From the NCBI RefSeq assembly GCF_034702125.1, contig NC_085869.1, positions 13,871,907 through 13,935,906 of the forward strand: a DNA stretch of 64,000 nucleotides, given 5' to 3'. The position numbers and the translations under genes are program-made. This stretch comes from Engraulis encrasicolus. Lineage: Eukaryota > Chordata > Actinopteri > Clupeiformes > Engraulidae. The notes beneath the pieces were generated by a model. That model saw only the letters and a list, made by a program, of their open reading frames with translations. It made no database searches and was not told the origin of the DNA. Of the stretch, positions 29,101 to 35,100 are shown piece after piece (positions within the stretch are counted from its first letter, which is position 1; the number at the start of each line of letters is the position of its first letter).

Positions 29101-32100
29101 TTAACATGGGGGGGGATTATATAAACTTGGCAAAGACAAATGATCTTGGCAAAAGACAAAGACATCCATGATTCAATTGAGCACATTCTAGGAAAACTGC
29201 ATGGCCGTACGTGGCTACAGACAGATCAGGTGGTCAAGATGCTCTCGGGTGTCAGTTTCAGATTTATGCCTTACTTCATCTTTTTATAGCGATTTGATAT
29301 TCCAGGAGATATTTGTCACGTCTCTGAAGGCCCCCCCGAAATAAATTGGTAGGTCTCCTGAAGAGGGGCTGGGTACTGAAGCTCAGTCTAGTTTTTGCCC
29401 TCCTGTCATGTCAACGTGTGCGCTACTGCTGGTGTCTCAGGCAGCCTGTGGGCTCCCCAGCGAGTCTCCCCAGCCCCCACCTCAGCCAGACCTCTCCGAG
29501 CACTGCATGCCGGCAGCAGGACACCGCCTGCTCAGTGCCGCTAGAGAAAGTAACACGCTTGGGGAATGCATTGAGCGCTTCCAGGCGGCCAACTACTGTG
29601 GTCATTTTGGAGCTAGGGGAGGAGATCTTTCCCATTTTTTCGAGTCGTCTTTCAGGGGTGACATCGTGGTGCAGGGCGCACCACCTGCGTTACAGAACAT
29701 GCCTGCGGCGGGCTTTGCCGAGCAGAGTCCATTTTCGGGGCGAGAGGAGCACAGAGATGGACAAGATGAGAGTTTTGATCGCACTTCTGGACTAAATGCA
29801 GTGGATCTGAGAAACTCTCTGGATTTGTCTGAGGACTGTGAATTTCGAGTCATGAATACAATGACGGAACGCCATGAATCTGGTGAAATGAAGATGGGAG
29901 ATTCTGATTCTGAAAGTGTGCCGGATTTACCTGAACAAGTTACAGAGAGCCTCTCTGTTCACAGTGAGTCCTCCCAAAAAACGGAGGAAATAATTCTTGA
30001 GAATAATATTTCATGCGTTAATCTTGTCACCACCACTACAAACATTTCAGATCAGAAAAGTGTGCAACGTGTACAGTCTGAGCAGACTCAGACTCAGAGT
30101 ATAGCAGAGCAGCAGAGTAGTAAGTTTGAATCTTCTAATGAAAGTAGGTCAGTTGAACCTGTTAGCGAGACATTGGAGCTCGGTGCAAATTTAAATTTAA
30201 ATTCGGTTCCCAAGGTGCCTGTGTGCTCTGACAAATGTGGGCCTCTGTACACAGAGGTGACTGACCCTAATCTCGAACGCACAGAGTCATTTAAACAATG
30301 TGAGGCGTGCACACAGAGCAGTAGCACGGTACAAGTGGGAGCCTGCATTGACGTGTCAGAAAGTGAAGTGCTGCTGGACGAGGCCTTTGAAAAGCCCTCC
30401 AAACGTGACCGTGAACCTGCCGCTGAGGTTTGCCAGTCTTTTGCGCAGAGCATGCCAGCAGCTAACTGTGAATTGGGTGAAAACCCCACACCCACTGACC
30501 TCGAAACCACAACTTGCAAGGTGGTGTGTGACACATTTGTTGCAAAGCCATCCGACATGGGTGACACCTGTGATCAGCCTGTGTCTAGCGAGGCGGCTCA
30601 AAGCCATTCTTGTTCTTCCTCAGAGAGCCGTCAGCAAACTAAACTCTCCAACAAAAAAATTACTCCAGAAGAGATGCGTCTGAACGACACTTCGACAGAA
30701 GAATCAGGTCAGCCGTCTGAGAGCTCTGTTCAGCGTTCCAAGACCGTTGAACAATGTGAGTCGTCCAAACACTGCGAGTTGGCCAAACAATGCGGCTCCC
30801 TTGACAGCTGTGCTAAATACTCTCACGCTTCCAAAATAAACAAGCCGTGCCAGCACCATAACACTCACTGTGAACAGCTGAAAGAGCAGCAGAAGACGCG
30901 GCGTAGTAAGTCCGAGTCTGATATCTTACTCTACGGATCAATGGACGCTTTCGAGGCGTTGTGGATCTCTCAGTTTGTAGTCAAACAAAAACGTGACACC
31001 CTGGAGCTACTGGAAGAAGAATACGAATGCTGTGAAAATTGTGATCTGTGCGAGCGTTTCTCTCAGCTCACGGAGGTGAGTGAATGCAGACCGAATACGG
31101 CTGTCAGCTGTGGTGGTGCAACACAACAGGAAGATAAACTGCAGACTTGTGGTCATTCGTCGGAGAGCAGCAACAGTGAAGTCTCTGTGCATTGCCTTGC
31201 CTGTCAAGAGAGTGACACTACAAAACGCAGCACAGTGTCTTGTCACAATAAATCCTCGCAGCACAGGAGGTTGTCAGAGGGTTTTGTACAACCTCAAGTG
31301 GACAATTTACAAAAAGTCTGCACTGATGTCAAGTGTAATGTACACCGGGCTCTTGATGTCTTTCTTAATCAGAATGGACTTTTGCAAATAAATGGAGGTG
31401 AAAGCAGGAATATTATTCGATCTAAAAAACCTGACGTGGAGTCTTTGGATGAATCCAGTGAAGGAGAAGACTACCACCTTTGTAGAGAGAAATCTCACGA
31501 CAGTTCGGAAACTGAAGGATCTTTTAAAACTTGCTCTGATGGAAGTGAGTGCGATGAAATCTGTTCAGTGTCGTCGTTTGGCAACGACAAACCCCACACC
31601 GAGGAGGAGGAGGAGGTGGAGGTGGAGGAAAATGTCCAGTTTGCCAACGAATCTTTTGAGGTACGGCGCCCGGACAGCCCGGACAGCTTTGTTGCAGAGG
31701 ACCGGGTGGAAGAAGCAGAAGCAGAGGAAGAAGATGGACCATGTGAATGCATTCTGGAATGTGAGGCTCAGTCATGTGACTACCTGTGGACTGAAGAACC
31801 GAGAAGAGGAAGTGCGGAACTTTTAGATGGAGAGTTTTATGAAGAACAGAGAGGAAATGCAGAACTTTTAGATGGAGAGCTCTATGAGGAGGAGGAGGAG
31901 GAGGATGATGAGGCACAGGCGTGCTGCATTGAAGGACTGTATGTTGAGGAAGATAGCAGCGAACCAGACTCCTCGGAAGGAGACTTGAGTATTGAGTTAT
32001 GTGTGGATGGAGGCAGCAGCACTGAATCCTCTGAGCTGGGAACAGGTGAGGTTTATGAGGATGGCTCAGTGGAAACGACTCCATCCGGGAGTGAACTTGA

Positions 32101-35100
32101 GGAACCGGCAGTTACACAGGAGGACAAAGTTTCACAAGTTTCCATTGCACACGCACTGTACCAAAGCCAAACTGCAAAATATTTCCTGGAACGGCGGAAA
32201 TTGTCACAGGCACAGGCCTATGGACACTATGCAGGGGACGCGTGCCGGTTGGATCTCATATTTGACCCCTGGACAGAATTGGAGATGACTAAAGAGAAGG
32301 AAGCTGCAGAGGCTGCTGCTGCTGCTGAGAAGGAGAAAGAAGAAGAGGAGGAGGAGAAGGAGAAAGAAGAAGAGGAGGAGGAGGAGGAGGAGGAAGTAGA
32401 GGAAGAGGAGGAGGAGGAGGAGGATGAAAAGGAAGAGGAGCAATGCCAGAATGATGATGTCAAGGCTGCTACACTCAGCCCAAATAACTGTGAATGCTGT
32501 CTAATTATCCCTGAAATCGTCCTCTCTGAGTCACCAGATGATGAAACAAATGATGAGGAGATTGTGGACACTCTTGAGAAAAGTGAGGGCCTGCTCAGCT
32601 GCCCAGAGATTCCTTATGGCATCGAGATCTCCGAGACCCCCGAGCCTCTTTTCTTGGACTTTACGCCTGATCAAGGAGAAGGGCTGTCAGAATGTGTTGA
32701 CAAAACCAAAATGCCAGAGCCTAAACGCTCAGAGACACCTAAAGCATCATTGTCATTGTCTGATCTTATTACCCAAGTGACAAAGTCCGAGAAGGAGGAT
32801 GAAACCAAAATGCCAGAACCTAAACGCACAGAGACACCTAAAGCATCATTGTCATTGTCTGATCTTATTACCCAACAGACAAAGCCCGAGAAGGAGAAGC
32901 GTGTTGACCACGTTAAGACCTCAGAGGAGCACAATGTTGAATCCACTGACCACTCTGAACAGTCTGAAACGAGTGAGTTCTTTAAGAGAAAAACTCCTGA
33001 ACCATCAGAAACCACGCAAGAGGATGAGTCTGAGGATGATGAAGAAGAGGAGGAGGAGGAGGAGGATACAGAGCCTTGTCAGTGCGAGTTCTGCGTTCCC
33101 ACAGAGGAGGTACTTACTGTCCTTATTGTTGCACTTTGTATGCCTCAATGCTACGACGCACAGGGCAATGTTTTGAGCAGTGTTTCTGGGAAACGATAGT
33201 ATATTAAGGTAATGTGTGATTTGTGTTTTTGTATCACTAGATCACTTCTCTCAAGTGAACTTGGATCAACTTAAACCACTCCATACGAATATTAATTTAA
33301 AAGTTGCCCTGTGTGGCATTACCTTAAGAAGCACTGTTTAAAACGGCCAAAACATAAACAAATTGGTTTGTTTTTGTTTGCTTAGCATGTCCAGTGACTT
33401 TTACCCCACTTATAATGCATGGTGTGAATTTTTGCTGTTTCAGAAATAAAAAAAAAGATAACTGAAACTTGCCTGCCTGTCGAGTTTTACCTGTGACCTC
33501 TTTTTCTGGTGTGTGTGGACATATGTTGTTGTCAACTCCCAATCTGAATTTGTCTTGCACCGAGAGGCTTAAAATAAGGGAAGGAGAATGTTCAAGTACA
33601 TCTCTGATTCCATGTCATATGTGCTTGTTACTTGAGTCTGGAGCTTAAAAAGACACCTATCTACAATGCACCCTAACCCCCCGCCTCGTCTATCACTCTC
33701 CACCTCCCCCTCTCAGTGCTGAAAGCCCCCACTAGCTCAGCACAGTCCTGTAGCAACATCTGTCTGTACTGTACTGTATGTATGTATGTGTATACATAGA
33801 GACTGTTCCCATAGGCATGTTTTCCCTCTTCCCATCTGGTTAAGTTGGTTTCAGCATGCGGGCACGGGCAGTCTATCAGACAAAGAATGGCATGGCCACG
33901 GGCTCTGTAATGTCATCCCATCCCCCGAGCTAAGCAAGTGCCCTCAGTCACACGGCCGCTTGGCGCTGGCCATGGAATGTAAGCACTAAAAGCGCTTCCG
34001 TGTGCCCCCTCATGGTCACTCCCCTTTAGAACCTCTGCGTCCTCCTCTCTCTCTCTCTCTCTCTCTCTCTCTCTCTCTCTCTCTCTCTCTCTCTCTCTCT
34101 CTCTCTCTCTCTCTCTCTCTCTCTCTCTCTCTCTCTCTTTCACTCTCTCTATCCCTCTCTCCTGCTCTCCCTCTCTCTCGGCCACTACAACCAAGGAAGC
34201 TTTTTTTGTGTGTGTTGCTTTTTCCGTTGACACTGCAGTATTGAAACAGGAGTCATTAATGATTGTGGACTGAATGTATTGCGTTACTGACTTGCACTGG
34301 CAGTGGTTTTAACTAGCAGCTGCAGTTGGTGTTGGAGCCGAGTCTTGAGCTGTCTGCACTGGCTTGTGTGTATACAAAACCTTGTACATTAAAAAAAATA
34401 AAGTGTGCGTAAAGTTTCCACTCTACACGTGCGTGCTTGCCCTGCCCACTGTGTCAAGTGGTCCAGTGTTGGGTTGCTATATTTGTTTGCTTGACTTTCC
34501 TTCTCTTGTATGCCCCCCCACCCCCAGGTCCCAGCCAAACCGCTGCTTCCTCAGATTAAGTCTAAAGACGCGGGGAAGATCTGTGTAGTCATTGATCTAG
34601 ATGAAACGCTAGTCCACAGTTCATTCAAGGTAAGCAGCAGAGACCTGTACATCCACCTACTGACCTCCTATCCCTGCCATCCTATACCTTTTATATATTT
34701 GTGTACGTAACTCTTCAATAGGGGTGTGTATTGGCAATGAGGTCATGATGCATCATGATACACTTATTACAATAATGATCATGAGACATTACTTTACTGG
34801 GTATATTGTAATATGACGGAATTCTACATATACAGTATGTAACTTATATTTTGACAATGTAAAATAACCCTTGAAACAAAGATATGAAATGACTATTAGA
34901 AGTTAACTTAAAACCTTTAAGAGTGTAGGTTTTTGAGCATTCTATAAAAAGAATGCGTTCTATAACAATGCAAGATTCTACAATTCCATATTGTATTGAA
35001 TGACGCCCAGAATTCTATAGAACTTTCACTGCCCGAACATTCCTGTCACACCAGTGTGACGGTACACTCTTAAAGGTTAAGCTAATTCATTTCATCCCCA

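Follow-up and report, generated by a model that had tools for sequence, protein, structure and literature searches.

The stretch of DNA analysed here (the window) comprises 64,000 nucleotides of contig NC_085869.1 of the fish Engraulis encrasicolus (positions 13,871,907 to 13,935,906, forward strand), and all coordinates below are counted from its first letter. It carries ctdsp1, the gene of the phosphatase SCP1, whose seven coding exons join in frame on the plus strand to encode, as the spliced short form, a 267-residue protein. Intron 2 of this gene contains a stop-to-stop reading frame of 1284 codons, most of which could be a giant in-phase exon. The features of the gene and of this frame are as follows.

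14081-14156, plus strand: ctdsp1 coding exon 1, running from phase 0 to phase 1, with the donor AAG/gtaagt
28269-28423, plus strand: ctdsp1 exon 2, which ends in phase 0 and encodes the cysteine cluster FCCLC (a palmitoylation site by homology)
29345-33199, plus strand: stop-to-stop frame of 1284 codons in ctdsp1 intron 2
29441-33109, plus strand: candidate giant in-phase exon of 1223 codons, predicted to be spliced, with an acidic, Ser/Glu-rich product containing 56 Cys
34528-34629, plus strand: ctdsp1 exon 3, which begins in phase 0 and encodes the catalytic motif DLDET
36585-36641, plus strand: ctdsp1 exon 4
37152-37231, plus strand: mir-26 precursor in ctdsp1 intron 4 (Rfam RF00244, 70.2 bits)
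37777-37869, plus strand: ctdsp1 exon 5
38383-38568, plus strand: ctdsp1 exon 6
39065-39199, plus strand: ctdsp1 exon 7 with the stop codon TAG

The gene around the frame is that of an ordinary SCP1. SCP1/CTDSP1 genes carry an intronic mir-26 gene, as the anchovy gene does in intron 4. Among PDB entries, the catalytic domain (residues 83-260) matched SCP1 best (360.6 bits, 4.2e-107), followed by SCP3 (343.9 bits) and SCP2 (328.5 bits), and judged by these matches the FCP/SCP catalytic domain is intact and nearest to SCP1. The FCCLC cluster of exon 2 resembles the conserved C44/C45/C47 of human SCP1 (PMC5404917), and is by homology the predicted N-terminal di-cysteine palmitoylation motif.

The candidate exon itself spans 3669 stop-free nucleotides. 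In 500 dinucleotide-preserving shuffles, the longest open run in any of the six frames was 311 codons and the mean of the maxima was 159 codons, compared with the 1284 codons observed, and at the stop rate of the intron (0.0499 per codon) a run of this length has a chance of about 10^-28.5. Its borders consist of an acceptor, gtgtctcag/GCAGCC, and a donor in which ACAGAGGAG is followed by gtactt; both lie in phase 0, matching the end of exon 2 (28423) and the start of exon 3 (34528). A first-pass annotation of this DNA had described 1223 codons without a stop, a length divisible by three and phase 0 on both sides, and all of this, including the borders, was confirmed to the base. When the segment was joined in silico with the seven exons, the product was 1490 amino acids long, with the sole stop codon at its end. 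The giant exon would form 82% of this long product, which would be more than five times the size of the short form.

Whether the frame is coding was assessed from its repeats, its base composition and its codon usage. Tandem Repeats Finder output, collapsed to non-overlapping arrays, gave 120 arrays outside the exon, 99 of them with a period above 2. Inside the exon, the periods of all 13 arrays were divisible by three, compared with 33 of those 99 outside, and when five GA-only arrays inside were left out while those outside were kept, the difference persisted (8/8 versus 33/99; Fisher p 2.9e-4). As every array period inside the exon is a multiple of three, gains and losses of repeats seem to have been filtered by the reading frame; signs that selection keeps the frame are thus present in the repeat periods. 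Three in-frame repeats stand out.

31805-31890, plus strand: in-frame duplication whose copies are spaced 45 bp apart (RRG[SN]AELLDGE[FL]YEE)
32337-32440, plus strand: poly-Glu tract of 27/30-bp units, in frame
32703-32896, plus strand: tandem pair of 99-bp units in frame, each encoding 33 residues, with copies 95% alike

The composition by codon position is as in coding DNA, with G making up 39% of position 1 and A 41% of position 2. A held-out codon score, calculated for 42 exon windows of 29 codons with the sequence outside as the null, averaged 0.42 in the exon and -0.27 (sd 0.24) in the null. Moreover, this score falls past the donor, from 1.49 at 33008-33094 to -0.11 at 33110-33196, the 87 nt that lead to the stop. 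Together, the open frame, the in-frame repeat periods and the drop in codon score indicate that intron 2 of ctdsp1 very probably contains a protein-coding segment.

We consider it fairly probable, on sequence grounds, that ctdsp1 uses this segment as a giant, in-phase cassette exon, whose skipping would give the 267-residue SCP1 and whose inclusion would give a protein of about 1490 residues. A cassette exon with this product had been proposed in the first-pass annotation; the coding frame and the phase fit bear the proposal out, while the splicing and the start site are what we infer. Splice sites were scored with position weights. By these weights, the donors of exon 2 and exon 6, both needed for the known protein, score 5.3 and 2.9, so that weak donors are normal for ctdsp1. 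Between 32900 and the stop at 33199, no in-frame donor other than the one at 33109 scores above zero.

Several measurements weigh against this reading. The first group concerns the coding signal itself. The period-3 power is 41.6 over the whole exon, but only 4 of its 12 pieces of 300 nt exceed the 95th percentile of the window (3.80). When only the ctdsp1 exons serve as training data, a codon model gives the frame the top place among the six by a narrow margin (-0.007 versus -0.082), and under this model the frame wins 10 of 25 windows while a minus-strand frame wins 8; this model separates the frames poorly because its training data are too few.

The second group concerns the splice sites, which are ordinary: the acceptor scores 7.3 and ranks 11th of the 478 AGs in intron 2, and the donor scores 4.1 and ranks 47th of the 388 GTs. 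In-frame alternative acceptors lie at 29474 (6.7) and 29486 (8.7), and the exact 5′ border given here is accordingly a predicted one. In addition, the 96 nt upstream of the acceptor (29345-29440) score +0.20, above the 95th percentile of the null, and two windows early in the exon have low codon scores (29528-29701, -0.01 and -0.08). The alternative in-frame acceptors and this coding-like upstream stretch make it a live, albeit unlikely, alternative that the frame belongs to a different first coding exon, transcribed from a promoter in intron 2, translated from the ATG at 29408 and spliced from 33109 to exons 3-7; the resulting long phosphatase would lack the palmitoyl anchor. The frame is indeed open and coding-like upstream of the proposed acceptor, the ATG at 29408 is in frame, and a TATA-like word, TATATAAA, lies at 29118-29125. 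On the other hand, the acceptor at 29441 fits phase 0, the plus strand of the window has 15 occurrences of TATA[AT]AA, and between the TATA-like word and 29408 there are five ATGs.

At the 3′ side, the fall in codon score past the donor is soft evidence that coding ends there: the score of the 87 nt (-0.11) is close to the upper quartile of null values (-0.13) but exceeds that of one of the 42 exon windows (-0.12). These nucleotides would be coding if the frame were a separate intronless gene nested in intron 2, with its ATG at 29408 and its TAG at 33197-33199, followed by a poly(A) signal, AATAAA, at 33445-33450. The stop codon and the AATAAA indeed follow the frame at a short distance, the structure is single-exon, and the score of the 87 nt, although low, stays within the range of the exon. 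It is nevertheless closer to the mean of the null than to that of the exon and comes just after the window that scores 1.49; the 87 nt would encode a hydrophobic tail unlike the remainder of the product, and a donor in phase 0 would be there by chance. We therefore regard a nested gene as improbable.

The interior of the exon raises a further objection, in that the two highest-scoring donors of intron 2, at 32045 (12.2) and 31075 (11.8), fall within it. The best acceptor of the intron (30624) lies there as well. One of these donors is in phase 0.

31074-31081, plus strand: strong internal donor GAG/GTGAGT after 31075, in phase 0, scoring 11.8, the second best of intron 2

If used, the donor at 31075 would yield a version of the exon of 545 codons. 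Cryptic sites scoring at least 6 are not depleted in the exon, which contains 15 donors and 9 acceptors compared with 11.5 and 7.1 in 300 synonymous shuffles. Undepleted cryptic sites would fit a dependence of the RBMX type, and equally an exon under little pressure. Furthermore, the two internal duplications differ by 5 nonsynonymous and 3 synonymous codons, numbers too small for conclusions, and no constraint at the level of residues is seen in them. These differences, together with the moderate splice sites, the strong internal donors and the unpurged cryptic sites, speak for a decaying remnant, that is, a formerly used exon that is now unspliced and whose frame survives through recency. 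Such a remnant is very improbable in our judgement. It would have to remain free of stops over 1284 codons with all of its repeat arrays in multiples of three, and these in-frame arrays include the 99-bp pair, whose near-identity (95%) points to a probably recent origin.

Two exon-donor duplications were observed within ctdsp1. The end of exon 2 with its donor (GGTCTNGAAAGTACRTA, 28414) has further copies at 28533 and 28693, which belong to a 152-bp tandem duplication (28414-28752) and provide decoy donors. Similarly, the end of exon 6, donor included, stands in a tandem array of three copies (38542-38680, 49 bp x 2.8). Elsewhere in the window, an Ig-domain exon lies on the minus strand at 61200-61400, with titin as its top PDB match (1.6e-12); it presumably belongs to an obsl1- or speg-like gene.

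Returning to the giant exon, its predicted product is rich in Glu (17.4%), Ser (11.9%), Asp (6.4%) and Cys (4.6%). By blocks of 100 residues, the net charge is negative everywhere except in residues 401-500 (+2) and is lowest in residues 701-1000. The CK2-type pattern [ST]xx[ED] has 40 matches, a count made without a control. Single-sequence structure models gave a mean pLDDT of 48.7 for residues 481-580 and of 64.9 for residues 883-960, the latter mostly helical at low confidence; such models are in line with disorder, although they are no proof of it. A role of the Cys motifs in sensing metal or redox state had also been suggested in the first-pass annotation. C-x2-C pairs are in mild excess (6, compared with an expectation of 2.55 after residue shuffling; uncorrected P 0.034, for one of five spacings tested), and the other four spacings have P values of 0.10 to 0.48, so that the suggestion is weakly supported.

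Comparisons with protein families did not place the product. Against Pfam, the whole product matched no family at the cut-off, the best being LURAP (16.8 bits) and Paf1 (16.2 bits), and against NCBIfam the one family matched, at 15.7 bits, was far below its cut-off of 177. Likewise, five separate pieces, which cover part of the product, matched no family above the cut-off. The best of these piecewise matches, to LURAP (PF14854, 31181-31591; 21.6 bits, E 2.2e-4), stayed under the 25-bit cut-off and was judged to be noise by controls. Among one reversed and eight block-shuffled sequences, 5 of 9 had a family match with E of 1 or less, and one of them matched RNHCP with 24.8 bits (E 2.1e-5), above the cut-off of that family; LURAP was rejected because one of the controls had reached such a score with an unrelated family. 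The best PDB match, RanGAP1 (E 0.0091), covers a Glu-rich stretch (residues 959-1032) and was read as an effect of composition, without a control. When the whole product, and one short piece per collection, were compared with viral and prokaryotic contig collections, no relative was confirmed, as expected because these collections are viral and prokaryotic. The idea that the long form is a scaffold for the phosphatase is a possible one, although no domain match above the cut-off supports it.

Single multi-kb in-frame internal exons have precedents in vertebrates among the ultra-long (>1 kb) exons, such as exon 13 of REV3L (~4.2 kb) and exon 9 of ATRX (3 kb). Ultra-long exons of the REV3L/ATRX type belong to genes for large proteins, whereas the host gene here otherwise codes for 267 residues. 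The giant alternative exons of the ankyrins and the regulated large exon of ninein change the size of the protein. The candidate in ctdsp1 would share with these the character of a giant alternative exon, but its host is a small enzyme rather than a scaffold, and no sequence relation is claimed. Ultra-long exons can require RBMX for protection against internal cryptic sites, and those said to do so contain strong internal splice sites (PMC11446547), as the giant exon does here. Disordered chain is what long internal exons tend to code for, and the genes that contain them tend to have nuclear functions (PMC9825244).

The known human proteins are of the size of the short form, with 261 amino acids in CTDSP1, 271 in CTDSP2 and 276 in CTDSPL (PMC7281111). 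Exons 1-7 of the anchovy gene likewise encode an ordinary SCP1 with both the Cys cluster and the DLDET motif, and mir-26 lies in an intron of the gene. In contrast to the known proteins, in which a short linker joins the Cys cluster to the catalytic domain, about 1223 residues could be added here between the two. A long form of CTDSP1 is not described in any of the titles and abstract openings listed for CTDSP1 or SCP1 in an open-licence library, and the main text of PMC7281111 does not contain the words isoform, splice or exon.

SCP1 acts on RNA polymerase II and helps to silence neuronal genes, and its membrane-palmitoylated form acts on AKT (PMC5404917). It is anchored to the membrane by the palmitoylated N-terminal di-cysteine and shuttles to the nucleus (PMC5404917). 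As exon 2 would provide the anchor and exon 3 the catalytic motif, with the giant exon lying between them, inclusion of the latter would leave both intact and alter the distance and the chain that connect them. The segment inserted between the palmitoylated Cys cluster and the phosphatase domain would be long, acidic and probably disordered, and with its many CK2-type sites it may serve as a spacer or a docking chain. Such a spacer would probably set the reach and the partners of the membrane-tethered phosphatase, and inclusion of the exon would probably be regulated, switched by the tissue. We tentatively propose, as a possibility short of an even chance, that fishes possess a second type of SCP1, produced by inclusion of the giant exon: a membrane-anchored phosphatase on a mostly acidic tether of more than 1200 residues, from a gene otherwise known for an enzyme of 260-280 residues. 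If this is true, the reach and the partners of SCP1 in fish would be set by splicing, and work on fish ctdsp1 that starts from a protein of 267 residues would overlook most of its coding sequence.

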